64,000 nt of DNA from Strix aluco (Eukaryota; Chordata; Aves; Strigiformes; Strigidae), in NCBI RefSeq assembly GCF_031877795.1, contig NC_133946.1, positions 11,755,144-11,819,143 of the forward strand, in the 5' to 3' direction. Below the pieces are notes generated by a model. It searched no databases, was not told the DNA's origin, and saw only the letters and a program-made list of their open reading frames with translations. The translations under genes were made by a program, and so were the position numbers. This document shows positions 9,101 to 62,443 of the stretch, piece after piece. How positions within the stretch are numbered: the stretch's first letter is position 1; each line of letters starts with the position of its first letter.

Positions 9101-12100
9101 GCAGCACTCTGAGTTAGATCGGGAAAGCCTAAGTCCTGATGGAGATGGCCTGGGAAGCCAAGTGGATGGCTCCTGAGGGTGGTGCTCACCATCGAGAGGG
9201 CTGGGCTATCTTGTCCATAGTGTTCAGTCTGGGTAATTGCATCTTTCAGGTCCTGTATGAGAGAAAAATGTGTGCAACAGCGCACCTGCGGAGCAAAGCG
9301 AGGGCCGGGGCGTGGCTAAGAAGCGAGCCGTGCGCTGGCCTGGATCTAACAGCCCAGGAGCACTGACTGCACGCAAGGAGGGTGGGCTGGCTCCGCGAGC
9401 TCCGCGCGAGCTCTGGCAGAGGACTTCGCCCAGGGGTTAAAGTGGGACTGGCCAGGTGGTTCACCAAGCCCCGCACTGCCGGGAGGGGTGGACAGAGCTT
9501 GTCAGACACAGATTTGGCCCAGTTAGGAAGGGAGCGTGGGACTTGCAGGCTTTGCGCCAGCTGTGGGAAGCCCCATAGCAACCAAGGGCTACTTGCTTTG
9601 ACCACAACTTTGCCCAGCCTACGGGCACTCTCAGAGGCACTCCGGATGCCCCCAGTGACACACATCCACCTGCCTATGTTTCTGCAGTGATGCTGACACC
9701 TGGGACCCGTCCAGAGCCAAATGTGCCTGTTCACACATTCATTCATTCGCCTATGAATTTGTAGTTCCGCGGGCCTGGGTACAGGTGCCTTGGGCATGGC
9801 TGGAAATTCATGTGCATCGACTAAAATCACACTGAGCACACACCTCTGCAGAATTTTCACATCTGTTTGCAAGGGCTTAGGAGCCCTATGCCTGGCCGAG
9901 CTTTGCTGTGGAGGCTACTGCTTTCAGAACTGTCACTTTGCTGAGGTAGGACTGGAGTGAGAGCTGGCCTGTGGTGAAGGAGAGGCAGCACTTACGTTGT
10001 GAGCTTTGGTGATGGTAATAGTGAGTCCATCCTGCTTGGGTCTCCGGGAGGTAACAGCCATTCCCTCCTGCTCAGCTCGCTTTTTGTCCTCTTCGATTTC
10101 CTGAAACATAAATACCCTTATCATCAGTATGTACCTGGATGCCTACAGATGTTGTCCATTTTCCTGTTTAGGATTTCTCCTAAATGGACCCACCTCCACC
10201 TCTAAGAGGGAGTGGACCAACTCATGTCCAACATGTGTGCCCTTGGGAGGGGTCACAGGCAGCTCTGACCTGCATTACCTGTCCCTGTGGCACAGGGTAA
10301 ATCTCGTATTGGCTCAGAGTGTCCCCCTGGTCTCAGCACACGTAGTGGGAAGCAAGCCCAGAGCATGGGGGGTGCTTCCTGACCGGCAGGGAGATGATGG
10401 GTTTGAGGTTCGGGAAGGATTGGGTGTAGGACCTGTGGAGAGGCTGGAAGACACACCGGGCCTGCAGAAAGGGAGGGCCGTGCTCAGGAGCTGTGGTCCC
10501 TATGCCACTCTGGGGCCAGGGCATCATCTGTGGCCAAGGGAAGGTGGCTGAGATCTGACTATCTACTAGGCAGCTTCTTCCAGAAGTCAGATGGTGGAGG
10601 CAGGTGGGCAGCATTTCATATGGGGTAAGAGTTCCTCTCCCCCAGCTGCCCATGGCTTTCAACCCTTCCCAGAGCTTTCCACTACGTACCACTTTTTGCT
10701 GCCACCAGAAAAGGTCCAAAATGGCTCCTGTGGTATCAAAGGAAATGTCTTCTGAGCAAGACCCAGCCCAGAGCACCACTCCGTCTCTCAGCTCTGGACC
10801 CAAGACACAAAGCCTGCTCTGGGTTTCCGGGTTTTCAGCACAGCTCTCTGCCAAACTCGAGACTGCCCACCCAGCCAGCAAATGTTAAAGAGCCCCTAAA
10901 GCCAAGTGGCCTCGGGCACAGGCAGGAGAAGGTCCCGGACAAGCCAAGGGGGACCCTTCTGCCAGGAGTACCCCCAGGCTGTCCTGCTCTGCACTGCCCT
11001 ACGCAGGCACCCACGGAGAAGGGTAAACAAATCCGCAGGGAGAGCTCTGGGTCACCACAGCATCCCCCAAACCAGCTCACACAAGCCAGGCTGGGTATCT
11101 CCTCCAGGCTGCTGGGTAGACTCTCTTGGCCAAGGCAGGACAAAAAAACAGCTGGAGGCCTTCCTCCTAATTCAGAGGGTAACCAGCAGGCTGCTAAAGC
11201 CTTGATTTGCCTTCATCTTCCTTTTTTTTCATGGCACCATTTTTGGAGATCTCTGTGCTCCACGGAAACACTGGGACCAGTGAGGATAGAGCTTCAACCC
11301 ATACCCCTGCCCTGGTAGGGAAGATAAACCTATCAAACATCTTGAGGATGCAACCTCCTGTGCATCCAAGAGGATAAGCATGAGGCACTGGGAAGGACAG
11401 ACGAGAAAAAAAGTCAGGGAAGTAGAAGGTGAAGGGGCAGGAAAGGTGTGATGCAGGTAGAGGAAGACGGTAGGGTGAGAAGAGATGCTGCAGCAGCAAG
11501 GCAAGCGCCAGCAAGCTGCTTTCCAGTGCAATTCAGGAGCTGGAGCTAAAGGCAGAGCTCTGCCCACCCACTCCGAATCCCTTCTGATGTAAAAACTGTA
11601 TTTGTATAACAAAGTCACTCCAACACTGTTGACCATTTTCATTACACTGGGAGCTGAGGACTCCAAAACAGAGCTGGCAAAGGTAAGAACCTGCAGACTT
11701 ACCTGGTATCGTCGTATGAGTGCTTCATTCTTTTTCCGCAAAGCCAGTATTTTCTTATCGAGTTCAACATCCTTCTGCTCTTTCTTCCTTAACACTGCAT
11801 CATCCACAGCAGCATCCTGAAAACAGGAGCAAAACAGTCATCACACCAACAGGACAAAACCCGCTCCTCCTGTTGAGATGGTGTGGGAAGTGGAAGAGTC
11901 CTTCCCCACCATTTCTCCCCTTGGTCCTCCATTAAAAAGAATACTGTATCTTGTAAACTGAGTTTTTCCTGACAGAACTGACCTTTTATTTTCCTACGAT
12001 TTTTTTTCAGCAATGAGGTAGTTAGAGGAAAAGCTGATGTCCCAGTTTGATGGCTGTCAGTAGGCTCCAGAGTTAACACACTGCTTAGCTGCATGCAGTA

Positions 12101-25900: not shown

Positions 25901-28900
25901 CACGGGAAGAACTCCCCTTTCTGGGATGGGCACAGGAGGGACAGAGCAGGACTAACACCACAGCAGGGCTTTCCCGAACACTCAACCCCTTCCAGATAAG
26001 TGGTCCCACACCTTTATTTAATCTTAGGGTTGAAAAAGAGGGTGTTAGCCCCATTCAGTGCATTGCCATGGCAAGATCTCCTTTCCTACACTCCCGAGAC
26101 ACGGTATTTCAATGCTAGGCTTTGGTGTGCTCTGAGACACTTGGGTATAGCGTAGTTTGCAGAACCGGGCCTGAAATGTGGGTTTCCTGTGAACTGCAGG
26201 AGCCTGGGAAAGGGGAGGGCTGGTTTTGCAGTGTTTGATCTCACACAAGGATTCGGCCAAGTCCTGGCAGAACCGCACTGTGCTGGCTGTTTGCAAGATC
26301 CTCAGTTCCACCAAAAGTCAGCTGTGATTTTCAATCCTCTCTGAAACTGAAGAAGGTATTGGAACAGACACTGTTAGTCAAGGTATGTTGATACATCCCA
26401 GTGTCTTCTCTGGCCTGCCCCAGGCTGAGAATTTATGTCCCAAATCCTCATAGGAAGACTATTTACGCACAAAGTATGAATTAGTCTGGGATATCTGAGG
26501 ATGCTCTGAGGGAACTGGCTCACTGTCAATCATGCTGGGAAATGGTGTGAACATATGGGCTGCTTCAGAGCAAATGTGGCTGTGCTCCCAGCGCAAGGCT
26601 CCGCAGAAAATGGTACAATATATCGACAGTGAGATTTTCCCTGCCAAGACAATGCTGAATTGGGTCTCCATGGGCCTCCTGCCCCTTCAAACATGCAGCA
26701 AACTCATCACATCTCTTATTTGCTTCAGTTTGCAATGTACTGGTGCCCAGAAACTTAATTGCCATATGCCTGGTACCTCCTCAGCCCATGGTATTGTGTC
26801 AACAGCCACTCAAAGCTTTTCAGCACTGTGGGAACCTTGCAGTCACTCTGAGAAGCAGGAAGGGCCCTGCCTGGATCTCTCCCTCCTGTGCTGCGTGTGG
26901 GTCGTGTTCCAGCACACACCCTGGGCATGTGTGATGGACAGAAATAATAACTGGCCATTAAAATTGCCCGTGAGCCTGATTCCCCAGTCCCTTTGAAATC
27001 TTGTGTCTTACACCGATGCATACGCTGTGGAGGATGCTTCCTACCGGCACAGACACCTCTGCGCAAATCTGGGAAGGTGACAGCCCTCCAAGCCCCTCCC
27101 AGGACAGTGGTCACAACCAGCTTTGAATAAATGGGCACTAAATCTTATTTTTTCAGTAGCTATATTTCTAAGGATTCACAGCATCAGTGCACCTACAAGC
27201 CAGAAAAGGGCAGTCATGGACCAGTTCATCTGACTCACGTAAATGGAGTTGCAAGAAGGGAAAAGATGGGCTCTGCTGATTGCAAATGGCCACAGAGGCA
27301 CGGCCTTCATGCACAAGCGTTGCTCGTGCCGTGCTGCCGGCGCAGCGGATCAGCACAAGTCAGGGTGGCTCTGTAAGGGAGGGCAAACACACATCGAGGC
27401 CTTTCTCTTTAGGCACCCCACACAGATGGTTTTGGCATAAGTGTCAGCCTAGATGTAAGTGGCTGCTCGGATAAACAGGCCTGACTCAGGTCTTGGCACT
27501 CAAACCCTGACTAAAGCACATTTCTATCTCTAAATTAAACCCTCCTGAAGTTGCAGAAGGTGGGTAGCTAAATTCACCTGTAAAATAAGCTCTGCACAGT
27601 GAAGGTGAGTGGGGCTCGATTTGCTAACGCAGCACCAGCCCCGCCAGGGACCTGGTCTCTGGCTCAGGAAGAAATTTCATGGGCTGAGACAACAGGAGGT
27701 TTATGAAGCAGAAGAAGCCAGGGCTGCTGCTGCTGAACCCATGGAAAGCTTCCAGCACGGGAGGTGTCTGGCACACTGTCGCTGGCTTGGAGGAGTAAAA
27801 ATACCCTTGCTATTTTATTGCTCCAGCGAGCAGTGACAGGCCAGGGTTCGAACATAGCTGGCTGCAGATCTGCGAGACATCGCACTTTGCTTGGAAACCG
27901 ACAGCCTGCCGCAAACCCAGTCAGCGCGGGTGGCCACGGAGCAGGGCTGAGCAGTGGCCGCCAGTCTTGCCTTGACCACCGTGACTCCAAGGGCTCAGCT
28001 GTCCATGAAACTCATAACATGAGTGATTTTGCACCGTCCAAAACCTGGCAGTGCTGCCACCATCGCAGGCAGGCAGCTCTGAGCGTGGTTTTCCTGAGAC
28101 CCAGCGTAGCATTGCCTGCAGCGAGCAGCAGGGATGCATCCCCCTCCAAAGAGATTGATCCAGACCGATCTGTCTCTGGCCTGCTGACTCACCCGTCATG
28201 CTTTGCCAGGCACTGTGGAAGAAAACATTCCTCTGGATGAAGGATGAAGCTTGAAGGAATTGTCTTGTGGGCATCATTTATGTCCCTAAAACAGTCTGGG
28301 AGCCCCATTGGCTCATACTTCCTATAAACTCTTGGATTTTTTCCATAAGGAGATGAAATCTTGGGGTTGGCACATACCTCCCCTAGAACGGCACTTGAGA
28401 TCTGCTCCACCAGGCTCAAACTGGCCAAGCACAGAGAGGCCACAGACTGGGAACATTGTGAATGGCAACAGGCACTGGGGATGGCACCAGGTTCTGGCTG
28501 GTGGTGTGTGCTGATGGGCACAGGCAGCTCCGCCACTGCAACACTGCAGGGGCAAGAGCCAAGTGGATTTGGAAGAAAGAGACTCCTGGCTTCCAGGGGG
28601 GTGCCCCCCCCCAGCCACTCCCTCCCAGCACTGACTGCAGGTGGGGGCAAGCCCAAGCAGCAGGGCCAGGCGGAGGTCTAGGAGGAGCTCCTGCTCCATG
28701 CCAGACTGTCCTTGGACATGGATGGCATGGCACGAACGCAGCCGTATTTGCAGCAGTCTGTTCGCATCCGTTGCCAGAAGGACGGCAGGACTTGCTGTTT
28801 CTGTCTCTGTGCTGGCGCTGGCTGCTCGCAAAGCCAGACACACACAGCAGCGCGGGGAAGCAGCAGAACGCGGGTGTCTGGCCAGAAAGGCAGGGGCTTG

Positions 28901-30656
28901 TTTTGGAGCATTACTGTGCAACATGGCTGCACCGGCTGGCGGAAATGCCTCAGCTGGGGGACACCCATGTGGTGTGTACACACTCGTGCTGCTTGTTGTG
29001 AATAAACCCAGAGGATTTGCCCTAACTGGAAGAAGCACCAGCATGCAGGTAATATTTCCATCTCATTTTCCTGCCCCAGGTGCTGGGGGCATCCACCAAA
29101 CCACCGAAATGGCTATTTTAAACCCCCAGGGCCCTAAGTGACTTGGGTGCCAGGAGAGCACCACTTGCTTTTGAGGATACCTTTCTCCTGCCTGCGGCTC
29201 ACACCACTGACGGGCGACGGGAGCTGCTCTGCTCGGAGCTGGACAGCACCCCTCTGCGTGTCTCCACGCAGCATCTCCCAGGTTTACCGACACAGCGACT
29301 GGTGGAAATGTGATGGTCTGTGTTGTAGAGGAGTGAGATGACCATCGCAGCTCTCTCTGCTCTAAAGCCCAGGCCTGTGTTTGTGCACAGCTCGGTGACG
29401 TTTTTGTGAACAGGAGCCTCTTTGCATACAGGGCCTGTGTCTGGCGTTAGCCACATGCACGCATGGGGGCTGAGGGCGAGGTGTCTTCAGCTGCAATAAA
29501 AGCAGCTTCATTTTTTATTCCCTGTGCCCTGCTCTTATTTTTCTTCACTTGTCACCTCCTCTACTGATCAACCCCCTATGGACTTGGGTAAGGGCTCCTT
29601 TGCCTGTTACCGAGATGCTCTCAGCTTTTGTCCAAGAACTGGCTTTCTTTCACAGGCTGCTGCTGACACTGTAATTTTCTTTCTGTCCTATTCTGAGGGA
29701 GCCAAATGTCACACAGGGACTCGGAATGACTGGCAGCCATGGGAAGAAAAGCACACGTTGCTCCAGGGGCAGGTATCTCTGCTCACTATGCCAGGGTGAT
29801 GCCAGCCAGGGCAGCCTCGTTACCAAGCAGTTATATAGTTTAGAACCACAAAATAGCCTGGCCTGCGCCTCCAAAGGAGCTGAACTCCAAAACACCTCCT
29901 GGGGCAGCAAGAGGGAGAAACAGGTGCCAAAACCAATGCCTAAGGCTCAACAACAGGTTGTAGGTCCACCTTGATAAAAGAAGTCAAGGCCTTATATTAA
30001 ATGACTATATTTGCAGTGTAGCAAGAAGGATTCTGGCAGCTCAGGGACCCACAGTCAGTCCGAGGATACAGATGTCTCAGAGGGCGACACTAGCACTGCA
30101 GAAGTAGCAAAAGTGGGCTACCAGGAGCTGTTGTCCCCTGATCCGCATGGACATGTCGCTGCCTGTTCCTGACGAGCCAAAGAGGAACAGGAGCAAAAGC
30201 AGAAAGGGCAGAGCACAGAGGGGACTGTCTTGTGACAGCGTCAGTGGAGATGAACCGCAGTGATCCGAGCCAAAATGACTGCTGGCAAATGTTAGCAATC
30301 AGCCAGGAGACTGCCCAACAGCGGGAGCCCGGGACTGCCACGCTCCAGCACCCTGCCCTGCGTGGGTGCTGCGTGGGCTTTGCCCAGCCAGCGGGCTGTG
30401 AAATGCTGAGCGCTGCTAACAGAAGTCAGGACATCGTGAACCCAGCTAAATTCTGCTTGGGGAAATGGTGATTTGTGCTGAAGGAAAAGGAATTGTGCTG
30501 AAAGTACCTGTGCTAAGATAGGGCCCCGGCAAATGAGCCACACTGAATGGTGACTGTAGCGCAAAGCAAAGCCATTGGGAAATGCTCTTGGTCACGTCTG
30601 CCAGCCCATCAAGTTAAAGCCTTATTCCGCCTCTTTAGAATGCTCTAAGGATATGC

Positions 30657-30710
30657 CTGGCTTGTACTCCTAAAGCTTGGCTTGTACTCCTAAAGCTTGG
30701 CTTGTACTCC
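30657..30710. repeat. 20-base tandem repeat, about 2.7 copies
   Basis: The unit TTGGCTTGTACTCCTAAAGC is repeated head to tail almost perfectly, with a final partial copy ending at CTTGTACTCC. It lies in intergenic DNA and has no apparent function. Confidence 0.9.
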
Positions 30711-32356
30711 TTTGCACACTACTTTGCACACACACAGAGCAAGTGAAATGTCGCATTCCCTTCTGACTCAGGCTTTAAGAGAGAGAGGAGAGCTGCAGAG
30801 ACAGTGTTGTGCTTTTTGTTTGTGAAAGAAATGCAAGTGGATGGTGAGCAGGAGGGCCAGGAGAAGCAATAAGCTGTACAAAACAAAGAAAAGAGATGCT
30901 TCAATTAAAAAATGTATCAAAGCTCAAATGCAAAGTTTTTTTCTCTTCTCTCTTTCACAGGTCAAGCAGGAGAGGTAAGAAATCTGTCTTCAACTGCCAC
31001 AAATACTGATTAGTGTCAAAAATACCCATGTCTCCTCCCAGGACTCTGTTACGCAATCCCTGGGCAGCCTTCCTACCTCACCCTGCCTCCTGTGGAGGCA
31101 ATGGGTATGAGGTGGAGAGATGTTTGCCCTGGCTCTCCCAGGAGCCGTGCTTTGTGCTTTCTGACCTTTTTCCATGTGTGAATACCTAAGCCTTTTCCTA
31201 GCAGAGGTTTCTAGCCCTGCTTGGGGAACTCAAGCCCTGAGCCAGCAGGCTTTCTGCTCTTGGATACTTCTCATGGAATGAGGAGTAGCTGATGGATCCC
31301 ACAAGTTTCTCTGGGTCAGCAGCAGAGAATTGCTGTCTCAGATGACAGAGGGGTTTTTGCAGCACAGCAGCTTCATAAACCTGCCTCACCCCTCAGCCAC
31401 CTCTCACATCGCCCCCAGTGCACCTTCGTCCCATTCACCTGTTCATATAGTATCCCTCTCCTTTCCCCCTCTCCTCTTTTCCCTGCTCACCAGCTTTTTT
31501 CTCTTTTCCACATGAATCCATTAAATCTGTTGGCTTTTTTAATATTCCTGACCCTGCACCTCCCCTTTTTGCTATTTTTCCCTTTGCTTCTACCTTTTTT
31601 TGGTTCTCTCTGTCCCTCTCGCTCACCCTCCTCCACCTTCCTTCATGTTGGAGGGACACCAGGGACCAGCTGGACCCGTCTGATGCTGGCAGGTCTCCGA
31701 TGTGGGTTGCCATGGCAAAGAGCCAGTTCCTGTGCTGATGAAGAGCAAAAAAAAGCCAACGTGACGTACCAACCAAGCGCTCCAGCCCCGGTCGTGTAGC
31801 AACAGCCCTGAGAGGGATGGGGCAGCCCCCCAACTGCCTCCCGCAGTGCTTCACAGACAGCTGGGAGCATGAGCCCTGCTGTGGCCCCTGGGTAAGGGCA
31901 ATTAAAAAATAAATCCATGTGTCAAATACCTTGCAGGCCACAGAAGAAACCTGGCAAGCTGTGGGAGTGAGGAGGTGTGATCACCCCCACTTCACAGACA
32001 AGGAGTTCACACATCAGGCTGAGCCAAACTAAAAGCTGCAAGATGCGGCTGTCTGTCAGAAGTGGTGGGATGTTTGCAGTTCAGCCTATTCCCACCACCC
32101 TTTCCGCTCCCATGGCTTTATTATTATCATTACTGTCACAAGTATTATTATTTAGCATTGGGAAGAAAGGAAAGGAAATAGCACCCATGTCCTTGTCATC
32201 ACATTAATGCCAGCCAATCTTTTCAGCAGATACCAGGTTTCAGTCTTTCCTGCTGGGCCACGTAATACAAGCTGCTCCATAGCTGCTCCTCACAGCGTGT
32301 CGGATCCTACCAGGCAAGCAATGTTTCTGTGGCTAAGGTTCAGAAAAGCAGGCTGG

Positions 32357-32472
32357 TCCCCTGGGTGCTGGCAGCACCCTGTGACCCAGTCGGGCAGGGA
32401 TTATCACGCTGGGATCCCCTGGGTGCAGGCAGCACCCCGTGACCCATCTGGGCAGGCATCATTGTGCTGCGA
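32357..32472. repeat. 58-base tandem duplication
   Basis: Two adjacent copies (32357-32414 and 32415-32472), both starting TCCCCTGGGTGC and both containing GGCAGCACCC then GTGACCCA. They differ at scattered positions, so the duplication is not very recent. It lies about 220 bases upstream of the PHGR1-like exon. Confidence 0.85.
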
Positions 32473-32691
32473 CACCGGCACTGCCTGCAGCCTGTCCTTG
32501 GAAACTCCCTCTTGATGGGTGGGGAGAGGCATCAGCCTATGGTCAGAGTCACCCACCCTGGCATTAGGAAAAGCTTTTTGTTCTTTAAACTGTCCTGGGC
32601 ATTAAGGCAGGAAGGGCTGCTTCTAAGCAGTTAGATGATTAGTGGGAGTTATAGGATACTCTCCAGTCTCATTCTCTCCCTTTTTCTTCAG

Positions 32692-32893
32692 CTTTATTGC
32701 AGCACATGAAGCAAAAGGATGCCAACCTCATAAGAAAGGTCACTGCCACAGTGAGGTCCACAGGCATGGCCACGAGAAAGGAGAAGGTCGTAGTCATCAC
32801 CATGGCCACACACAGGATGGTGAGCAGGGAGAAGGTCACTGCCACTCCCATGGCCACACAAACAGTCACATGAAAGGCCCAGGCCCTTCATAG
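32692..32893 (+). CDS. PHGR1: PHGR1-like His/Gly-rich protein, terminal exon
   Basis: The exon begins after a strong acceptor (CTCTCCCTTTTTCTTCAG at 32674-32691), or at 32703 if a second AG is used, and ends at TAG 32891-32893. The last 52 codons start with KGHCHSEVHRHGH and form three 16-residue repeats at 32738-32785, 32786-32833 and 32834-32881. Each carries several histidines in HGH or HCH form and a glycine near the end. Human PHGR1 is a small protein rich in proline, histidine and glycine with an early KGHCHC segment, and it lies between CCDC9B and DISP2 on the DISP2 strand. Position, strand, size and composition therefore agree, but this copy has few prolines. The exon with the start codon is not identified and no AATAAA was seen just downstream. 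The histidines suggest metal binding, which is inference only. A chance repeat remains possible. Confidence 0.5.
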
Positions 32894-33399
32894 CACAAGT
32901 AATGCCATGGTCATTGGCATGGGAGATGCTGTGGAAGTAGCAGCCACCCCGAGGATTCCACAGGCTCCGTGGGCAGCCCTCCCCACGGCACAAGGGGACG
33001 GCGGGTGGCTGCCACGCAGCCCAGCGCCATTTCATGGTATCAGCAGACGACGACAGCAGGATCCCAGGGAGGTGAACATGTCTGACCTCCTTGTGTTCTC
33101 TGTGCTTTCGACTCAGTTGTTTCCAAACTACCATCTATTTCATCAAATTGCTTATTTATTGCATGCTGCTGAAGTCCAGAGGGTGAACCCACACACTTCA
33201 GAGCACTGCCCTGCACCTGCCAGGCCGCCCAGGAGCACTTCTGGGAGCTTTCCCACCTTGGGCCAAAGCATGGGCATGACTCCGCAGGGCCGAGGGACCT
33301 GCCACCCAACGGGATCTGTGCGCCCTTTGAACCTGCAGCCCCCCTCGCTGTTCCCCCCGTCCCACCCCCGGCGTCAGGACCTGCGCGCTGCTCGGGGTG

Positions 33400-34060
33400 A
33401 GGCCGGGAAGGGGATTTTGGGGCCGGGCGAGGCGGTTTGGCCCATCTCGGCACAGCCCCTGCCCCCTTGCCCCGCCATGTGCCCGGCGGCTCCCGCAGCG
33501 CCGGGGGTGGGAGGGACGAGCGGGGCGGCCCGGAGTGGCCTCTCCCCGCAGCCCCCACCCCCGCACCCCCCTTCCGCGCTCCCGGGGCAGGCGGCAGCTC
33601 CTCCGCGCCCACCCCCGCGGCTATTGGCCCTCCGCGCCGGGCCCGCCTCCGCGGCCGCGCAAGCGCCGCGGCGCGCCGGGAGCGTTCAGCACCGCGGGTG
33701 CGGACAGCGCCCGCCGCCGGCCATGGAGGCGGCTCCGCGCCGGGAGCCGCCGCCCCCCGGGACGCGCCGCGGCCGCCGCCCCGCCTCGCCCGGGTAAGGA
33801 CCGCGGGGGACGGGGCTCCGGTGGCGGGGATGGGGCGAAGGGAGGTGGGGGGGGGAGCCCCTCAGCTGCCCCCCCCACCCCGCCCCGCCTCGGGTTTGGG
33901 GTCGGGAGGTCCGTGCGGCCGCCGCCCCTGGGAGGGTGGGGGATGCCCGGGCTGTGCCTCCCCGGTGGGTTCTGTCCTGCCCCGGGGCGAGCTCTCCGTT
34001 CCGCCGCAGCGGACGAGCTGCTGGTGGGGAAGGCCGGCGTGGCTCCGAGTGCTCGCTGCG
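33400..34060 (+). promoter_or_regulatory. DISP2: CpG island over DISP2 exon 1
   Basis: A strongly CG-rich and CpG-rich stretch surrounding the DISP2 start codon, with runs such as GCGGCCGCGC and several CCGCCC boxes. It stands out against the flanking DNA and probably holds the DISP2 promoter and 5' untranslated region. The long frames on both strands here come from the base composition. Confidence 0.75.
33723..33793 (+). CDS. DISP2: DISP2 exon 1 (start codon)
   Basis: ATG at 33723 in the context GCCATGG opens 23 codons (MEAAPRREPPPPGTRRGRRP onward) plus two bases before donor GTAAGG. The two leftover bases are completed by the first base of exon 2. The sequence is arginine- and proline-rich and not similar to the human N-terminus, which is also a low-complexity region. 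The start is chosen because it is the only in-frame ATG in the CpG island that joins exon 2 correctly. Confidence 0.8.
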
Positions 34061-40000: not shown

Positions 40001-43000
40001 GTTGTCTGAAAAATAAATAAGAGGGACTCTGCCTTCATTTTTTCCCACATCACATCAGGTGCCTGAGGTTAAAGTTCATCTCACTCTAGTCTTGCTCCAG
40101 CACTCATAATTCTTTGATGACTTGAGACACTCTGTGATTCTCGCTGGCCCGATTCATTCGTCATCCCTAGTCCTCGATGCCAGACACTAGGGCAGGACAT
40201 ATAAGTCAGCTGTAGACACCATGGCACGTGCTCTGAACAAGGCCCGGACGCTACTGCTGTTTCCCTACTGCACTTTCTTTTTGAGCTCCAGGTTGCAGGG
40301 TGCTGCTGAACCTCCTGCACACCTTGGCCAGCTGCATCTCTTGAGACAGCAATTCCTGAGGCGTTTCTGGGGTCAGTGTGACCTCAGTCTATCGTATGTG
40401 AAGGGGTTTTTGGTGTCACACAGACTAAGCAGTCCCTCAATGTATTATACAGACTTTCTCTGAGCTAGCAAAATCTCTCAGGCTCCATCAATCAAGAACT
40501 GTAGGGATGAAATATTTTTTTAAATTCCTTGGAGAGAAGAAAGCACATCCTGCAGAGACCTCATTGCTTGGGAACTGAAGTCTGCAAATGTTTTGTCTGA
40601 GTAAATTGAGCAGTCAGAGGAAAGTCAAGCTTCAAAAGATCCTGAGAGATCCTAGTCCATCTCCTTCCTAATACCAAGACCGTTAATATCTGTTCCTGTC
40701 ATCCTTGGGAGGGGCGTGTCTAAGATGTTCCTGAAGAGCCCAGTGGAGAGTCTGCAGGACACGGAGCCATGAGGGCACGTGCCAGGCTGGAGGCTGAAGC
40801 CCCTTTCACACCGTCACGGCCATCAGGTTCACTGTTCAGGTTTTTTAGTGCCAGGGATGATTCACTCTCCCCCTCTCGCAACGTGGAGCAGTGCCAGTCC
40901 TTCTGCAGAGCAATCAAACAAATTCATCTTCCCAAGAAGAGCTGATGATTGAGTGTCTTCTTCAAATGCAGTCTCCTCTGGTTTCCGTTTCCCTGGATCT
41001 CTGTAGTCACTCTGTGGTCCTGCATTAGGACCCTGCCATTATCACCAGCCAGTGTGTTCTGCTCCCTCCACAGTGAAATATCTTGGAGAATTCTTTGAGG
41101 GGATGTTAACCCAATTTTTCAAAATTTTGGAGCAACACACACAAAATGTGATGGATTCTCCATCAGTTGGAATCCTTGAGTGAGTCACGGATATCTTTAT
41201 AAAAAGCATAATCCAGCTCAGCCTGGAGACTGGCTGTCAGTACAGCAAATAGCGGGTGAGGTTTTACATCTTGTGTTACGTGGGAGGCCTGTGAGAGTCT
41301 CCCGTTTGCAGGATGCGATTCCCCTGCGTAGCCTTTCTACCACCCTGCTGTTTTAACAGAGAAGGGTTTCACCATACCCTTCTTTTCTCTCACAGAGAAA
41401 AACAAAATGCAGGACCTTGCCAGACCTGTCTCGCCATGCCAGAGATCGGGAACACCGAGCCCAGCTACAGTGGCACTTCCTGGGAAAGAATCTGCCCGGT
41501 CCATCACTGCCCCATTCCTGCATCCCCCAGGCTGGGGGGAGACCGCCTGCCCTCCTCCAGCCACACGCTTGGGCCAGTCTCCACACAGTCCAACGGCCAG
41601 GTGCCATCGAGCTCCCAGGACTCACAGCAGCATCACCTCTACTACCCCTGCACCCAGCAGAAGCCCCGAGGCAGCTACGGCCTGCCTCCGCTTCCTGGGC
41701 ACGGCGAGAGGCCCATGTTGTGTTCCCACCTTTCCAGCGGGGATCCTGCACCAGCTTCCCACCACGAGGCCTCAGAAACCTCCTGGAAACAGTGGTCCCC
41801 CGGGCAGCGACGGCCGGTGCAGCATCACATAGTAACAGTCAGGTGAGAGGCACATGTGGAGCAGTTCAGGAGCTTCCAGAAAGCATCTCCTGAACGTTGT
41901 GGTGGGAAGCAGGAGGGATGGGAAGGGTCTGGGTGGGTATGCACGAAACCTGGGCTTGCTCTTCAGTTTGGGACAGCAGCTGCCCCAAAATGCACAGAGG
42001 GATCCAGTCCGCTCTCTCCATCTCTGTGGAGAGTGTATGGAGAGCTGCCGTTCCCTAGAGCTGCTGTTCCCGAGAGCTCCCGTTCCCAGAGAGCTGCTGT
42101 GCCTGAGAGCTGCCATTCCCGGAGAGCTGCCGTTCCTGAGAGCTGCCGTTCCCACACCAGGGAGAGGCAGGATTTGCTTCTCAATGTGACTCACTGGACA
42201 AAGCCAAGGTCACTCGGCTTGCTCCTAGATCGTGCAGCCCTGACCATGTCCATCTTTTGTGATATTTGTATTTTCTCCTTTTGTGCTGCAAGACATCCAG
42301 CTGGCTAATTCTTTTTCTTGGCAGAGTTTCTCAGTGATAAGAGCAGAGTTAATTTCTTTTTTTGCCCCCACCGCTGGAAGGAAGAGGCAGCAGATGGTAA
42401 GCACCTGCTACAGCTGAACAGTGAGAAGAATGAAAGTGGGGAAGATTATATGGTTCTCCAGGTTGGTCAGCCACAAGGGTGTAAATTCTGTCCATGGCAG
42501 AATCGGGCAAACTCCATTTGTGTGCAGAGCGCTGCGGAGACTTGCCTGGGCAATGGATGTTTCTCGGGCAGCGCTGTAAGGACACATACAGGTGGATGTC
42601 CCCAACAGCCAGAGCTCCAACCTCTGCTCCCTCCAGCCAGCATCATCCTTCCTCTCTGCCTGTGCCTTCTGGAGTCCACTTTTGGCGCTGAAGACCACGA
42701 TCGCTGTGCTACCAGAGCAGTGGCCACCAAAGTCTGAGAAAAGCTGGCACAGGATTCCTTCCTTGCCTTTGCGCAGCCGTGCAGGGTTAGGCACAAAAGC
42801 CCTTTATGGTCCCATTTTCTAGCCATCAACAGAGGATTTAATTTGCTTCTGTTTGCAGTGTAGAGCAATTGCAGTGAGAGGAGTGGAGCCTGGATCCTTT
42901 TTAGCTCGCACGCTATCAACAAAATTGTCAACGATGTTCTCTGTAACAGGTTATTTAAGTAGGAAACGCAGCTGGATTGCAAATCCCTGGCAGAATGTGC

Positions 43001-49000: not shown

Positions 49001-52000
49001 AAGACAAGGTTAGTCATGTCAGGAAGAACATATATACACACTGTCTCTTTTCTGGCTGCCCTAATCTTTAATCTCTAGTTGAAAGGAAGCCAGACAAAAG
49101 TAACATAAGCTACAGAACAGGTTTCAGCCTAGAGGACTCCAAAGCATTTTACCTACTTAGCAATACGTGGATGATTCCACCTGTCGCTGAAGTCCAGCTG
49201 CACAGTAGCAGCTGCCATTAAACAAGAATAAACGGACACTGAGCAAGAGCTTGGTCCAGAAGCCAAAGGTGTCCATCAGAAGCTGCTGGGAATTTTGGGC
49301 AGCAGAACCTAATTACCGAAATGGAGCTGTCATCTTGGAGACTGTGACAGCAAGTTTTGCAAGTGGGAAGTTTAATTGGATTAGCTGTGTTTGCCATAGG
49401 ATCCAAGCTTTCAAATCAGAGGTTATAAATAATGGACAGGGTTTAATTTTTGCAAAAGGCTAGCACGTTTCCATAGCTTTAGCACTTGCAGTTTGTCATG
49501 GGGAGGATGGCAAGCCATGGCTGGTATACCTGGATGGGACTACTACTGCAGGGAGCAAGGAACACTATGGGGCTGTGAGAGGGTGTGACATGATGCTCCC
49601 TCGTGTTTTTCAGATACGCTCACATGTTCATTTTAGAGACCTCTGCCAACGTACTGAAGCCAACGAATGCTGCCCAAGCTGGTCTCTGGGGAACTACATT
49701 GCTGTGCTGTACAACAGGTCCTCGTGTCTGGAGATAACCCAAGGAGACATCTCCCACACCCTGGCTCTCCTTCGTGCCTGTGCTCCAGACTACCACAAAG
49801 GTACCCTCACTCCATCTTGCATAGGTCCTCAGACCGTGCGACAGAAACACTCTCAGTGCGCCCAAGTCCCAGAAAAATGTACCCGCTTCAATGCCATTTA
49901 CCAGCTTCTTCACTTCTTGGTTGACAGAGACTTTCTTAGTCCCCAGACGATGGAGTACCAGGTGCCATCTCTCAAATACAGCCTGCTCTTTTTGCCTACA
50001 AGGAAAGGTGCATCTATGATGGGGATCTACTTAGACAATCTTGAATCCTGGGATCTGTTTGATAACTATACATCTATCACTGGAATGGACCTGGGCCTTA
50101 AGCAGAAACTATTCCAGCACTACCTTTTACTGGATACTAAGTATCCAGTCCTGGCAATATTAGCTATTTTTCTAAGCATTTCTTTTTATTTACGCTCAGT
50201 CTTTATTACCTTGATGGTCCTGCTCGCTGTTGTCAGTTCTTTAATGATCTCCTACTTCTTGTACAAGGTGGCCTTCAGATTCACCTATTTCCCTTTTGTA
50301 AACCTGACAGCAGTCATTATTCTCAGCAGCCTCTGTGCCAACCACACCTTTGTCTTCTTCGACCTCTGGAACCTCAGCAAGAGCCAGAACCCTTCCGCTG
50401 GGCTTTCTCAGTGGGTGAGTCAAACCATGCACCATTTTGCGTATCTCATGCTGGCATCTTGCTTCACAACGGGTGCGGCCTTCTACGCCAGCTACATTAG
50501 CAATATAATAGCCATCCGCTGCTTCGCTGTTTACATGGGCACCTCTGTGCTGGTGAATCTGGTGTTCATGATGACTTGGCTTCCTTCTTCGGCTGTGCTG
50601 TATGAGCGCTACATAGCAACGACCTGCATTTACAAGCCAGAAGACTATTGGAACAACACTGGCCATAAGAGAGTCTCTCTCTCCCTCCACTACATTCTCA
50701 GGGGTCTCCAGAACACGCTGTCTGAAACCTCCAAGCTGCTATTTGAAAAGCTTCTGCCGTGTGGGGTCATCAAGTTTCGGTACATCTGGATCTGCTGGTT
50801 TGCTGCCTTAGCAATAGGAGGTGCCTACATTTCCTGTTCCAACCCCAAACTCAAACTCCCGACTCTCGAGACATCGTCTGTCCAGGTGTTTAGACTGAGC
50901 CACCCCTTTGAGAGGTACGATTCCGAGTACTGCCACCAGTTCATGTTTGAGAGGCTGGAGCACGGAGAAGGGCAGCGCATGCCTGTCACAATAGTCTGGG
51001 GCATTCTGCCTGTGGATAATGGGGACCATTTCAACCCAAAAAGCAACGGCACCCTAGTGACAGACGTCACCTTCACAATCCAAAACCCTGATGCCCAGAA
51101 GTGGCTCCTCGAATTCTGCCAAAAAGTGAAGAACAAAACTTTCTATTACCCTGACGCAGAGCAGAAATCTACCGTGTGCTTCATGGAGGAGTTCCTCAGG
51201 TGGATGGACAGTCGCCAGTGCTCCCAGCGAGACTACAGCTTCAACCTTTGCTGCAACCAGTTCTCTTTCCCTTACGGAAGCGAAGTCTTCCTACACTGCA
51301 TCAAAATGATGCTGCTGGAACAGGGCAGGGAAGGGGCAGAAACGTACGATCTGGGCCTCAGGTTTGATGGGGAGGGAAATCTCGCTGCCTTAGTGCTGCA
51401 GTTTCAGACTATTTATCACTATAGCTTCAACTACAGCAAAGCCAAACAATTCTATGAGGAAATCAACCTCTGGGTAACAGAGGAGATGAAAACTGCCCCC
51501 GTGGGGCTTCAGAATGGATGGTTTACCAGTAAACTAGAGCTATACAATCTCCAGCACAGTCTCAGCACAGAAACGATGGTGGTCATGGGGCTCTCCATAG
51601 CCGTTTCCTTCGTGGTGCTGCTGCTCACTACCTGGAATGTTCTCCTTAGCGTTTTCTCTGTTACTGCCATTGCGGGCACTGTCCTGGTAACCATTGGCCT
51701 TTTGGTCCTCTTGGAGTGGCAGCTCAATGCAGTGGAGTCTCTCTTCATTTCAGCTGCAGTAGGTCTCTCCGTTGACTTTACCGTCAACTACTGCATCTCC
51801 TATCATCTGTGCCCCCACTCTGACCGCCTGAGCCGAGTGGCCTTTTCCCTGAAGCAGATGAGCTGTGCCACGGCCATGGCAGCTTCTGCTCTCTTCTCTG
51901 CAGGGGTCATTATGTTGCCTGCGACGGTCCTGGCGTATAGGAAGTTGGGGATATTCATCATGATGATCAAGTGCATCAGCTGTGGGTTTGCCAGCTTCTT

Positions 52001-53033
52001 CTTCCAGTCGCTGTGCTGCTTCTTTGGCCCAGAGAAGAACTGTGGGCAGATCCTCTGGCCTTGTGCCCACACCATGAAAGACTACTATGATGACTCAGGG
52101 CTGAACGGAAGCTTTGCCTGTGGGGGGAGCGAGAAGCAAAACCGATTGCGGAAGGTCCAGGAGTCCAACACTGCAAATGAGCAATACGAGCTCCAGCCCC
52201 TGTCCAGAAAACTGAGCGACAGCTTTGACAACAGCACTTCCACGAGCAAGCTGTCCAACCGGCCGTCAGTGCTCTCTGAAGACACACAAGTGGAAGACAA
52301 CAGATGCCCCAGAATGGGAACGCACCCCTCCCTTGAAAGGGAGAGACAAAACCTGCAGGAGACCCTTGGAGACCAGCAGGTTGGCCTGTGCCAGTGTCCT
52401 GCCTTGCAAACTTCCTCTCCTTACAAGCACAGCAGCTCAGAAGCAGAAATTCACAGGGAGAGACTCTGCCGAGATTGTCGATGTCGAAAGTATGGTCTGA
52501 AAGCTTGGGATGGGTCTGGACTGGACCATATCCAGCCGGCTGGCATGAAAGAAGAAGGGCAGCTCAATAAATCACAGTGCTCTAGTGACACTGCCCAGCA
52601 GCAGTCGGATTATACCTCAGACAACAGCCATCTCCCTGCCGCTGACATCTACAAAATTCACAGATGCCTTTGTTCTCTTGGCAGCTCTTTTGACATGCTC
52701 AACATTTCCAGTGAGACGTCGATTAGTGATTTTGAGCAAGGCCTAAAGCTTGCTGAATCAGCCAGTTCTTGTCCTGATGTCTTAGAGCTGTCTGATTCGT
52801 ACAGTCAAACAGAGAGAGGTTACTTGAACGGGAAGAGAGATACCCTGCGGTTGGACCTGAGGGAGACTGTCTTTGATATCTCTCCAGCAGCATCGCAGCA
52901 GAACAGCTCTTCATGGAAAAATCGATTTGGATTAGGGAGCGAAGATCCAGTTGTGTTACCGAACAGCCAACCGGACATGCCTGATGTTTGGATCAAACGA
53001 TCTAGCGCACAAAGTTCTGCTTACAACAGCTGA
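33723..53033 (+). CDS. DISP2: DISP2 (dispatched RND transporter family member 2), complete
   Basis: Gene-level entry. Eight coding exons (33723-33793, 41396-41842, 44107-44136, 46265-46388, 47249-47364, 47841-47959, 48911-49008, 49614-53033) total 4425 bases and predict 1474 residues, against 1401 in human as I remember it. All phases join. The order of regions is a Pro/Ser-rich cytoplasmic N-terminus, membrane segment 1 at about residues 192-214, a Cys-rich first extracellular loop, a sterol-sensing-like bundle at about 510-665, a further membrane segment at about 724-745, a second loop, a C-terminal bundle at about 988-1140 and a long cytoplasmic tail. This is the Dispatched/RND layout. DISP1 exports lipid-modified Hedgehog, whereas the substrate of DISP2 is not settled. 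The N-terminal bundle has Asn578-His579 where DISP1 has an acidic pair, while the C-terminal GLSVDF motif keeps Asp1056. The tail matches human strongly at EQYELQPL and LPNSQPD. Confidence 0.96.
33794..41395 (+). other. DISP2: DISP2 intron 1
   Basis: A 7.6 kb intron. I see a short inverted and direct repeat at 35899-35936 and a degraded CR1-like stretch at about 40635-40920. The block at about 35340-36050 is AT-rich and could be regulatory, but this is only a guess from composition. No further exon is supported. Confidence 0.65.
40635..40920 (-). mobile_element. Degraded old CR1-like fragment
   Basis: The plus strand reads TAGTCCATCTCCTTCCTAAT, then TGTCATCCTTGGGAGGGGCG and TAAGATGTTCCTGAAGAGCC. 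This follows the reverse complement of older CR1 3' regions as I remember them, but with many differences. The 3' end of the element would be to the left. Limits are approximate, and only the first 110 bases or so are reasonably clear. Confidence 0.4.
41396..41842 (+). CDS. DISP2: DISP2 exon 2, cytoplasmic N-terminal region
   Basis: A 447-base exon after TTTCTCTCACAG, ending AG before GTGAGA. The reading frame is fixed by conserved pieces near its end: YGLPPLPGHGERPMLCSHLS and VQHHIVTVR, matching human SLPGLGD...LCSH and VQHHVVSVR. The rest is rich in Ser, Pro and Gln. Two other frames are also open across this exon but lack this similarity and do not splice. Confidence 0.92.
41843..44106 (+). 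other. DISP2: DISP2 intron 2 with minisatellite
   Basis: A 2.3 kb intron. It contains a degenerate tandem repeat at about 42039-42154. A 14- to 15-base T run at about 44080-44094 forms part of the pyrimidine tract before exon 3. No other exon or element is evident. Confidence 0.7.
42039..42154. repeat. Minisatellite of about 18-20 bases, 6-7 copies
   Basis: Imperfect head-to-tail copies of a unit close to AGAGCTGCCGTTCCCG. The unit varies by a few bases and by one or two gaps between copies. It lies in DISP2 intron 2, about 200 bases after exon 2. Confidence 0.85.
44107..44136 (+). CDS. DISP2: DISP2 exon 3 (30-base microexon)
   Basis: A 30-base exon between TTTTCTCTGTCTGCAG and GTATGT. With the flanking exons it reads RHDKAFRMPKS, against human RQERAFQMPKS. 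It preserves frame whether included or skipped, and leaving it out would remove ten residues just before the first membrane segment. Confidence 0.93.
44137..46264 (+). other. DISP2: DISP2 intron 3
   Basis: A 2.1 kb AT-rich intron. It holds TA/TG simple repeats at 44409-44483, a T-rich run at about 44700-44726 and a possible degraded interspersed repeat at about 45130-45240 (ACATAAGAACACAGAAGAAA and following). The 200 bases before exon 4 are very AT-rich. Confidence 0.6.
44409..44483. repeat. TA/TG simple repeat
   Basis: Alternating purine-pyrimidine tract of TA and TATG/TGTG steps on the plus strand, interrupted once by AATAACCC. Confidence 0.9.
46265..46388 (+). CDS. DISP2: DISP2 exon 4, first membrane segment
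   Basis: A 124-base exon after TGATTCCAG, ending at the phase-0 donor GTAAGT. It encodes SYSQMIAEWPIAVLVLCSVT and on to LPDFSEPLM. Human has SYSQLIAEWPVAVLMLC and LPDFSKPLL. This is membrane segment 1 and the start of the first extracellular loop. The frame stays open for 500 bases into the intron, but that part has no similarity. Confidence 0.95.
47249..47364 (+). CDS. DISP2: DISP2 exon 5, extracellular loop 1
   Basis: A 116-base exon after TTGGCTGCAG, ending AG before GTATGT. It starts GFEPRDTDIGRKLIVWRN, nearly the same as human GFEPRDTDIGSKLVVWR. This motif follows the first membrane segment in Dispatched proteins. Confidence 0.95.
47841..47959 (+). CDS. DISP2: DISP2 exon 6, extracellular loop 1
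   Basis: A 119-base exon after TCTCTTGCTAG, with donor GTGAGT. It encodes a divergent hydrophilic stretch ending FFCGPPE (the last codon shared with exon 7), as in human NFFCGPPEKSYAKL. Confidence 0.92.
48911..49008 (+). CDS. DISP2: DISP2 exon 7, extracellular loop 1
   Basis: A 98-base exon after TTTATTTCAG, donor GTTAGT, phase 0 at its end. It encodes KSYSQLVFMSTTAGSLWNLQ and on to CQIEQDK, closely matching human KLVFMSTSSGSLWNLHA. Confidence 0.95.
49614..53033 (+). CDS. DISP2: DISP2 exon 8, large terminal exon
   Basis: A single 3420-base exon after CTCGTGTTTTTCAG, encoding residues 336-1474 and the stop TGA. It covers the rest of loop 1, both membrane bundles, loop 2 and the cytoplasmic tail. 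The frame is open upstream to 49575, but the acceptor and the human match IRSH fix the exon start at 49614. The presence of nearly all of the transporter in one exon agrees with the human gene as I recall it. No frameshift or internal stop is present, so the copy appears functional. Confidence 0.97.
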   Translation: MRSHVHFRDLCQRTEANECCPSWSLGNYIAVLYNRSSCLEITQGDISHTLALLRACAPDYHKGTLTPSCIGPQTVRQKHSQCAQVPEKCTRFNAIYQLLHFLVDRDFLSPQTMEYQVPSLKYSLLFLPTRKGASMMGIYLDNLESWDLFDNYTSITGMDLGLKQKLFQHYLLLDTKYPVLAILAIFLSISFYLRSVFITLMVLLAVVSSLMISYFLYKVAFRFTYFPFVNLTAVIILSSLCANHTFVFFDLWNLSKSQNPSAGLSQWVSQTMHHFAYLMLASCFTTGAAFYASYISNIIAIRCFAVYMGTSVLVNLVFMMTWLPSSAVLYERYIATTCIYKPEDYWNNTGHKRVSLSLHYILRGLQNTLSETSKLLFEKLLPCGVIKFRYIWICWFAALAIGGAYISCSNPKLKLPTLETSSVQVFRLSHPFERYDSEYCHQFMFERLEHGEGQRMPVTIVWGILPVDNGDHFNPKSNGTLVTDVTFTIQNPDAQKWLLEFCQKVKNKTFYYPDAEQKSTVCFMEEFLRWMDSRQCSQRDYSFNLCCNQFSFPYGSEVFLHCIKMMLLEQGREGAETYDLGLRFDGEGNLAALVLQFQTIYHYSFNYSKAKQFYEEINLWVTEEMKTAPVGLQNGWFTSKLELYNLQHSLSTETMVVMGLSIAVSFVVLLLTTWNVLLSVFSVTAIAGTVLVTIGLLVLLEWQLNAVESLFISAAVGLSVDFTVNYCISYHLCPHSDRLSRVAFSLKQMSCATAMAASALFSAGVIMLPATVLAYRKLGIFIMMIKCISCGFASFFFQSLCCFFGPEKNCGQILWPCAHTMKDYYDDSGLNGSFACGGSEKQNRLRKVQESNTANEQYELQPLSRKLSDSFDNSTSTSKLSNRPSVLSEDTQVEDNRCPRMGTHPSLERERQNLQETLGDQQVGLCQCPALQTSSPYKHSSSEAEIHRERLCRDCRCRKYGLKAWDGSGLDHIQPAGMKEEGQLNKSQCSSDTAQQQSDYTSDNSHLPAADIYKIHRCLCSLGSSFDMLNISSETSISDFEQGLKLAESASSCPDVLELSDSYSQTERGYLNGKRDTLRLDLRETVFDISPAASQQNSSSWKNRFGLGSEDPVVLPNSQPDMPDVWIKRSSAQSSAYNS

Positions 53034-60109: not shown

Positions 60110-62443
60110 GCTGCGTGCGCGTGGGGCCTGTTTGATCAGGTATAATGACCGAAATATGAGCATCAAAGAAGCAAATCGTAGAATCACAGACTGGTTTGGG
60201 TGGGAAGAGACCTTAAAGCCCATCCAGTCCCACCCCCCTGCCCCAGGCAGGGACACCTTCCACTAGCCCAGGTTGCCCAAAGCCCTGTCCAACCTGGCCT
60301 TGAACCCTTCCAGGGAGGGGCAGCCACAGCTTCTCTGGGCAACCTGTGCCAGGGCCTCACCACCCTCACAGGGAAGAATTTCTTCCTTAGATCTCATCTA
60401 AATCTCCCCTCTGGCAGTTTAAACCCGTTCCCCTTCGTCCTATCCCTACCCCCCTGATCAAGAGTCCCTCCCTCCTTTCCTGTAGCCCCTTTAAGTCCTG
60501 GGACGCCGCTCTAAGGTCTCCCCGGAGCCTTCTCTTCTCCAGCGAACCCCCCCAACTCTCTCAGCCTGTCCTCACAGGGGGGGTGCTCCAGCCCCCCCGA
60601 GCAATTTTGTGGCCTCCTCTGGCCCCGCTCGAGCAGGTCCATGTTGACTGGATCTTATCAAATCCTCTCAAAAGAAGTGTTGCCGTTCTCACAGCGTGTT
60701 CTCTTGCCCCATGGGGGACCTTAAAGTTTAGGATAATAGTTCTTAGCTTTACTGTTTCCCCCTGTGTTCTACAGCAGCCCAGTGCCAGCCATCACAGCGC
60801 TTACTCCCTGCTGCCCCAGGGTGTGGAGGGAAAGGTAGCAGCTTCAAAGGGTTGGTCCAGACAGGCTTCTGCTAATGTAACTCTCTTCCTTGGTGGTTCT
60901 CAGGTCTGGAGCTGTAGCCTTATTTTCTAGATAATTATGACAGTGCAAGTGTACAGATGTACAAAATAAACTTTCTCCTTTCATTCTCTTTTCTTACTGT
61001 AGAATTATTCTTTACCAGGTTTGTGTTCATGGTTTGTAGCCTTATGAGCTCGTATTAACTTGATGTTTCTTTGTGCTTCTACAATCAGCAGGTGTAAAAG
61101 GAAGAAAATATTATTGTAGTTCATATCTGTCTGGTGGAAAAGCTGAAAAAAAAATCAGAAATCAATCTTTAGTAATGCTAGTGAAGCTGTGAATTAACAG
61201 CACTAACTTATAAACTGGCTTAGAGTGTCAGGGATATCTGTCTGAGTCTATTCCTTAGTCTCTAATTGATTAAGATATTTCTTTTTATTGTGGTTTTAAG
61301 CGTTTTTTTTCTTTAAAGCTTTATGCTCAAGTTTTCTGCTGACAACTCTGTAACAATGGAAACATATCTAATGTTTAAAAACTTAAGAAAAAAAAATCAA
61401 CAGAGGGGAAACTTGTTTGGTGGTACTGGAACCCAAGGTCTGGATAGCCATGGAAACTAGCATATCTTTTTAATTAGAAAAAAGAGGCTGCTTTAGTTGT
61501 GAGGTTGAGAGAAGGGCAGAGGAGCCTGGGTATATTTTGGTTTGTTGCTTCTGCCCCTTCTGCAGGCTCTGGTTATAGGGTTTCAGTCTCTAAGACTATC
61601 CCTTCACCAGCATTAATTTGCAGGAATAAAGGACCAAAAGGAAAAATGGGATTATTAAGATCTATCGTAACATCTAGACAAAGTTCTTAAATCTCCAGAT
61701 TAAAAACATTTCAGATGTTGGCCATATTTTCTTAGTGTGTGTAAGACTTCTGCAGAATACATGTATGTAAGTACTCAGATTTTAAAATTTAGAAAAAGAT
61801 TTTGAGATTTTTAACACTTGGATCAATGAGCATACCTGACTTTATAAAACTTTCCCTCTGTAGAAAATAGTAAGATAGCTAATGTAGTTCCAGTTTGATA
61901 CACTAACACATTTTAATTAGTATGCATGCTTATTACAGGCATTTGCATATAATTAAATGAAACCACAAGCAGCTTCTGAATAGGGATAGTACATCATAAG
62001 TTCAGTTCATCAGCTTTCAAAGTTTCCTGACCAAAAACATCCCCTGAAGCCCTAGTGCAGGCAGCAGTTAGGGAGCATTCTGTCATGTTGGGGTAAGGTT
62101 AAATGCTGAGAGGAACTTAAGTACATCAGTATCTTGTCTTTGAAAGACTAAAAGGCTTTTCCAGGGGTCTTTTAGCCAGTAACATTGATTTCTTTATGTG
62201 AAACATTGAAACATTGATTTCTTTATGGTCTTGTGCTCCTGGGTTTGGGATCCTGAAGTCTCCTGGCAGGGAAATGTTGGCAGCATCCTGGGGAAGAAGA
62301 CAACAGTATATGGATGAGATGTAACGTATGTGTTTCTCCATCTCTCTTCCCAGCTTAGACAGACCATGACAAAGTTCTGTCAAGAGCATTTGGCTCCGAA
62401 GGCCCAACAGATTGACCAGGAAAATGAATTCAAAGACATGCGG
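59683..62443 (+). CDS. IVD: IVD (isovaleryl-CoA dehydrogenase), first two coding exons, runs off right edge
   Basis: Gene-level entry for exons 59683-59814 and 62354-62443. IVD is a mitochondrial matrix flavoprotein of the acyl-CoA dehydrogenase family. It oxidises isovaleryl-CoA to 3-methylcrotonyl-CoA in leucine breakdown and passes electrons to ETF. The 74 visible residues hold an Arg-rich, acid-poor mitochondrial presequence of about 30 residues, then [14 protein letters not shown] and [20 protein letters not shown]. These match human [14 protein letters not shown] and [20 protein letters not shown]. The FAD-binding domains and the catalytic glutamate are encoded beyond the window. Intron 2 seems to begin with GC instead of GT. 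Confidence 0.95.
60077..60105. repeat. A(29) mononucleotide run
   Basis: Twenty-nine consecutive A bases on the plus strand inside CpG-rich DNA. It shows no clear link to a retroposed copy. Confidence 0.97.
60173..60645 (-). mobile_element. CR1 LINE 3' fragment
   Basis: About 470 bases closely following the 3' end of avian CR1 in reverse. The plus strand starts TAGAATCACAGACTGGTTTG and goes on through CATCCAGTCCCACCCCCCTG, GGGCAACCTGTGCCAGGGCC and CCCCAACTCTCTCAGCCTGT to CAGGTCCATGT. It is 5'-truncated as most CR1 copies are and better preserved than the other copies here, so it is fairly young. It strongly supports a bird as the source. Confidence 0.93.
62354..62443 (+). CDS. IVD: IVD exon 2, bounded by GC donor
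   Basis: A 90-base, 30-codon exon after CTCTCTTCCCAG. It encodes [20 protein letters not shown] and on to NEFKDMR, aligned residue for residue with human ending NEFKNLR. After CGG the intron starts GCAAGT, the consensus of GC-AG introns. No GT within reach would keep the phase expected for the next human exon, which begins EFWKQ. Confidence 0.93.

Follow-up and report, generated by a model that had tools for sequence, protein, structure and literature searches.

A short histidine- and glycine-rich open frame within the window (the 64,000-nt stretch of Strix aluco contig NC_133946.1 that was analysed) raises a key question: is it the last exon of a real protein-coding gene and, if so, is this gene the bird counterpart of mammalian PHGR1 or a histidine-rich gene of separate origin?

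The repeat array and the candidate terminal exon

The candidate terminal coding exon occupies positions 32692..32893 of the + strand and is read in the histidine-rich frame (hereafter, the His frame) up to a TAG stop codon at 32891-32893; the ORF containing this frame extends over 32639-32893. Within the exon, three consecutive 48-nt units on the + strand, unit 1 (32738..32785), unit 2 (32786..32833) and unit 3 (32834..32881), encode GHCHSEVHRHGHEKGE, GRSHHHGHTQDGEQGE and GHCHSHGHTNSHMKGP, respectively. The description given in the first-pass annotation, namely three 48-base repeats preceded by a strong acceptor and followed by a stop, was reproduced in coordinates, frame and sequence. The units share 27/48, 31/48 and 27/48 identical nucleotides in pairwise comparisons, versus 10-17/48 for pairs involving the flanking 48-mers. 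Their majority consensus encodes GHCHSHGHTHGHEKGE and displays a four-residue rhythm that is partly eroded in the single units, and the predicted tryptic peptide of the His-frame protein is SHHHGHTQDGEQGEGHCHSHGHTNSHMK. The 48-nt array was absent from the output of Tandem Repeats Finder (score 50), presumably because the units are too diverged. Splice sites were scored with a vertebrate weight matrix. The acceptor at 32692, described earlier as strong, indeed scores 12.7 and belongs to the top 0.22% of 4,968 AG sites when the window's + strand is scanned, while an alternative acceptor at 32703 is weaker (6.6, top 5.1% of the same sites).

Background comparison and copy number

Could such a repeat have arisen by chance? 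The background set joined the window with twenty 10-kb control segments of its own contig (264 kb in total, including 549 N); the mean GC content of these controls (40%) is below that of most of the window. With 15 His in 48 residues, the array ranks first in a six-frame set of 2,203 ORFs (minimum length 48 aa) from these 264 kb, and the next ORF contains nine. Three-unit tandem similarity of at least 0.604 at periods of 30-66 was detected in only four clusters: the His array, a GAG array near 13150, a minisatellite near 42032 and an N-letter artefact. Chance origin of the repeat is ruled out by this background.

The exon DNA has a single match across the 1.41-Gb genome, and a dispersed repeat or a gene family was rejected on this ground. 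A protein search of the genome with the exon returned the exon itself and two other matches with E values of 0.41 and 0.55. Comparison of the exon with Pfam and PDB gave no match, the Rfam search of 30000-34000 gave nothing at the gathering score, and the viral and prokaryote collections yielded 1 and 49 pattern matches, none of which was confirmed, as expected.

The coding frame of the array

Another important question is which frame of the array is translated. An open frame is weak evidence of coding here because four of the six frames run through all or nearly all the array without interruption. The pN/pS ratio between units is 0.48 in the His frame and 1.11 and 1.09 in the other two + strand frames, and the similarity of the units (BLOSUM62 sum) is 127 in the His frame versus 61 and 64. 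Tested against units that diverge neutrally from their consensus, the similarity in the His frame gives a P value of 0.034 and the absence of stops one of 0.43. The corresponding P values for the His-frame pN/pS ratio are 0.014, 0.053, 0.145 and 0.210 at kappa 1, 2, 4 and 6, and transitions account for 29 of the 59 differences between units, which is near kappa 2. Differences between units are distributed over codon positions 1, 2 and 3 as 19, 17 and 23, with no clear third-position excess. Thus, the synonymous excess for which the first-pass annotation proposed a test is visible in the low ratio but only suggestive, since P is about 0.05 near the observed transition rate and 0.145 at kappa 4. 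The comparison between units suggests, on the basis of sequence, that the His frame is the coding one. Pfam returned no match for either the His frame or the +1 frame, so this search does not separate them.

Upstream exons and the gene model

The upstream exon with the start codon, which the first-pass annotation left to be found, has a plausible candidate at 30772..30843 (+ strand), a first or internal exon with a putative 5' end that terminates in ...ATGCAAGTGGATG followed by gtgagc. The donor at 30843 scores 8.9 (top 0.93%), and an acceptor-like site at 30772 (8.5, top 2.25%) would permit an additional exon further upstream. Between this exon and the array lies a candidate 14-nt microexon, GTCAAGCAGGAGAG (30961..30974, + strand). 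Its acceptor at 30961 (14.9, top 0.02%) is the highest on the + strand of the window, and its donor at 30974 scores 10.0 (top 0.39%). The pair score of 24.9 ranks first among 13,914 short acceptor-donor pairs on both strands of the window and among 54,935 pairs in the 264 kb, in which 6 of 38,029 acceptors reach 14.9 or more; single strands of 40 simulated Markov-1 sequences, each 64 kb long, gave a maximum pair score of 23.0.

When 30843, 30961-30974 and 32692 are spliced together, the ATG at 30841-30843 opens into the His frame. The resulting model, MVKQESFIAAHEAKGCQPHKKGHCHSEVHRHGHEKGEGRSHHHGHTQDGEQGEGHCHSHGHTNSHMKGPGPS, has 72 aa (7.88 kDa), including 16 His, 12 Gly, 3 Pro and 3 Cys, and is composed of MVKQESFIAAHEAKGCQPHKK, then the three His/Gly units, which hold two of the Cys, and finally a GPS tail. 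The start codon at 30841 is weak, with T at -3. Another ATG at 30831, 10 nt upstream, has a purine at -3 and is off the His frame if the microexon is included; out of frame, it would yield the 14-residue MQVDGQAGELYCST.

The choice of first exon is unsettled, so the candidate exon and microexon supply a start codon at 30841 as one model among close competitors. Among three-exon models, an alternative start in an exon ending at 29048 is level with the 30841 start (32.54 vs 32.53), and a +1-frame model from 28462-28640 scores 32.49; among two-exon models, two +1-frame models (24.2 and 24.1) stand above the best His-frame model (23.7). Middle exons at 31937-31974 and 31857-31891, which would link MQVDGQAGE to the His frame, were rejected for their weaker splice sites. 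A direct path from ATG 29578 or 30831 to 32703 was also rejected: its phase fits the His frame, but it relies on the weaker acceptor and leaves the microexon out. Of the 12 poly(A) hexamers searched for, none is present between 32894 and 34638, an AATAAA first occurs at 34746, and donor-like sites occur within the array (32819, 8.9) and beyond it (33071 and 33396). Nevertheless, the extreme repeat and His content, together with four good splice sites that follow one another in order on one strand and keep the His frame open, make a gene probable at the level of sequence.

Several minor features were noted in the same region. The 14-base word GGATGGTGAGCAGG occurs at 30839-30852, around the donor of candidate exon 1, and again at 32815-32828 in unit 2; 0.3% of 1,922 random 129-nt segments of the window equal this sharing with the exon, and in the repeat frame the word reads DGEQ at both sites (translated by hand). 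At 31817-31891, an ATG-led open stretch, MGQPPNCLPQCFTDSWEHEPCCGPW, is followed by a donor of 7.8 (top 1.8%) and could be a Cys-rich first exon. Just 5' of candidate exon 1, a 20-base unit is present in 2.7 perfect copies (30658-30711).

Neighbouring genes and synteny

Downstream of the array, a large + strand open frame of the Dispatched family (49464..53030) matched Dispatched homolog 1 structures in phmmer with an E value of 8.3e-298. We take it to be DISP2 rather than DISP1, in view of the human protein and because IVD follows. Part of an exon of isovaleryl-CoA dehydrogenase (IVD) was recognised at 62348..62443 (+ strand; phmmer to 1ivh, E 2.5e-10), the match covering residues 11-42 of the ORF 62318-62470; against Acyl-CoA_dh_N, it gave an E value of 0.00016 and 22.5 bits, slightly below the Pfam cut-off of 22.9. 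Pfam searches of 10 and then 62 neighbouring ORFs found nothing, and one of 118 ORFs returned ten families, of which only Acyl-CoA_dh_N was judged credible.

Thus, on the downstream flank, the candidate exon lies 5' of the Dispatched gene and IVD, and all three are on the + strand. This agrees with the place claimed for it by the first-pass annotation, that of human PHGR1, as far as these two neighbours and their strand are concerned; at the human locus, CCDC9B lies upstream. A minus-strand coiled-coil ORF at 11232-11837 resembles CCDC9B, an assignment for which the Pfam test of this ORF gave no support. In PMC8850418, human PHGR1 appears in an alphabetical list with CCDC9B, DISP2, KNSTRN, IVD and others as genes of one locus; no search of the window pointed to KNSTRN.

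The presumed first exon of DISP2 was placed by eye near 33.7 kb, with a donor at 33793. Between the candidate exon and this presumed start, a minus-strand AATAAA (33155-33160) was seen by eye, which may mark the end of an antisense transcript. A minisatellite with units of 16, 33 and 49 bases is located at 42040-42154, 5' of the large Dispatched frame.

Comparison with human PHGR1

How far does the likeness to PHGR1 extend beyond position? The first-pass annotation ascribes to human PHGR1 a KGHCH start like that of the bird exon, a motif that arises in 0.18% of 50,000 shuffles. The human sequence used for comparison consisted of four stretches from published Northern probes (PMC5803922), one of which translates to the 13-residue peptide HCGGHGHPPGHCG. 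Its best BLOSUM62 match, HCHSHGHTNSHMK (32837-32875), lies in unit 3 and ranks first when the 274,740 stop-free 13-mers in all six frames of the 264 kb are compared, with a score of 39 versus 33 for the runners-up. This score was reached by 1.9% of composition shuffles of the bird-model residues and likewise by 1.9% of those of the human peptide, whereas the plain identity of 6/13 was equalled in 22% and 24% of shuffles. The bird unit consensus GHCHSHGHTHGHEKGE matches HCGGHGHPPGHCG at 7 of 13 residues without gaps; the earlier statement of an almost complete change in the repeat unit is therefore too strong. At the DNA level, none of the four human stretches, aligned with or without gaps, showed homology to the locus that stands out. 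Under two scorings, the best gapped segments in 29000-33700 take places 21 to 130 out of 5,280; one of them, a CCCTGCTCTTA match of the human 5' probe near 29530, is 44th.

Like mammalian PHGR1, the bird candidate lies 5' of the same downstream neighbours and on the same strand, and it would specify a tiny tandem-repeat His/Gly protein from small exons, with no signal peptide evident by eye; Lys-Gly before the first His cluster may be a further likeness. The bird model contains KKGHCH and exactly three Cys, residues that may correspond to conserved ones of mammalian PHGR1: Lys at residue 6 of the human protein is followed by Gly, and three Cys are present in all six mammals of the alignment in PMC5803922, which covers primates and rodents only. 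Human PHGR1 is described there as a protein of 82 aa and 7.7 kDa encoded by four exons and 434 nt, with five repeats of about 11 aa and a content of 29% Pro, 18% His and 31% Gly (PMC5803922). The bird model is similar in size (72 aa, 7.9 kDa) and rich in His, but it contains only 4% proline (3/72) and 17% glycine, and its repeats are three units of 16 aa. It has three exons, with a possible fourth upstream via 30772, and its DNA lacks similarity to the published human stretches. Histidine-rich glycoproteins are named among the look-alikes of PHGR1 (PMC5803922). The bird model resembles such histidine-rich, metal-binding low-complexity proteins in its tightly spaced HxH and HGH clusters; unlike histidine-rich glycoprotein, it has no evident signal peptide or folded domain, and the likeness lies in the spacing of His and Cys.

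A search of the PHGR1 literature naming chicken, avian, ortholog or DISP2 returned no title on a bird gene. On account of its position and peptide pattern, the locus is perhaps an orthologue of PHGR1. We use the term candidate rather than proven member because DNA homology is absent and because proline content and repeat length differ.

Alternative explanations

The evidence as a whole makes it fairly probable that the + strand carries a real, single-copy, small protein-coding gene, which would most likely be PHGR1 in its sauropsid (bird) form. A gene of this kind might instead have been born here independently, or be of unrecognisable descent, so that its likeness to PHGR1 would reflect convergence of low-complexity His/Gly repeats. 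Such an origin would account for the lack of DNA homology to the human fragments, for the low proline content and different repeat length, and for the ease with which composition alone reaches 6/13 identities (22% of shuffles). We consider it unlikely, given that the downstream neighbours are those of mammalian PHGR1 and that the BLOSUM-scored peptide match goes beyond composition (P 0.019). It is also rather improbable that the locus is non-coding, with the exons forming the 5' part of an alternative DISP2 transcript or a lncRNA whose last exon carries a decayed 48-bp minisatellite with an incidental frame. The extreme His content, the frame-specific pN/pS and the very good splice sites connecting an ATG to the His frame argue against this explanation; it agrees with the four open frames, the second minisatellite near 42040, the donor-like sites in and after the array, and the absence of all 12 poly(A) hexamers between the stop codon and 34638, beyond the presumed DISP2 first exon.

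Translation of the exon in the +1 frame (MQVDGQAGEHMKQKDANLIRKVTATV... or MQVDALLQHMKQKDANLIRKVTATV...), with the His frame silent, appears very improbable. It would employ the ATG in better context at 30831, joined to the acceptor at 32703 with the microexon included or to that at 32692 with the microexon skipped, and other +1-frame models are level in rank with those of the His frame. However, in this frame pN/pS is 1.11, the unit similarity is low (61 vs 127) and a stop codon falls inside the third unit.

Proposed mechanism and significance

If the gene is a bird PHGR1, its transcript would join the exon ending at 30843, the microexon 30961-30974 and the terminal exon from 32692 and encode the 72-residue protein. 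The product would be a small, soluble and probably unfolded protein of gut lining cells, with no signal peptide evident by eye. Its closely spaced HCH and HGH groups would carry metal ions or protons, and the protein could serve the cell, also near acidic vesicles, as a buffer or adaptor that responds to metal or pH. The repeats would supply many weak, equivalent sites, so that the number and composition of units could drift while function is maintained. Spaced His together with Gly and a few Cys are common to the human form and the bird model, and the simplest function for both may be that an unfolded chain binds metal ions or protons weakly and at many sites. The cellular role in this scheme is borrowed from human PHGR1, which is found in mature gut epithelium, in the cytoplasm and nucleus and in vesicle-like speckles (PMC5803922). 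Its knock-down altered transport genes, with V-ATPase-related genes over-represented among those that were raised (PMC5803922).

In our judgement, the chances are about even that PHGR1 is an old amniote gut gene whose repeats have been rebuilt almost freely in each lineage around a kept HC..HGH..GH skeleton, with a His/Gly/Cys form in birds and proline added in mammals; rebuilding of the repeat region would explain why homology searches miss it. Human PHGR1 is reported to be specific to gut epithelium and has been proposed as a colorectal-cancer marker (PMC5803922), and it has been named a candidate for diverticulosis (PMC12111319). Its function is unproven, and a true bird form would show what is kept (the spacing of His, Gly and Cys) and what is not (proline), which would point at metal or proton handling. 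Such a gene would also exemplify small genes likely to be missed by homology-based annotation.

Regulatory-like words upstream of the candidate gene

Words resembling CDX2 and HNF4A sites were located in the window on both strands. The CDX2-like GCAATAAAA at 29493 is one of three such words, and the HNF4A-like word at 29579 (at most one mismatch) is one of 21. A donor at 29587 follows ATGGACTTGG just 3' of the HNF4A-like word, and the segment 29493-29587 could possibly be a gut promoter plus first exon.
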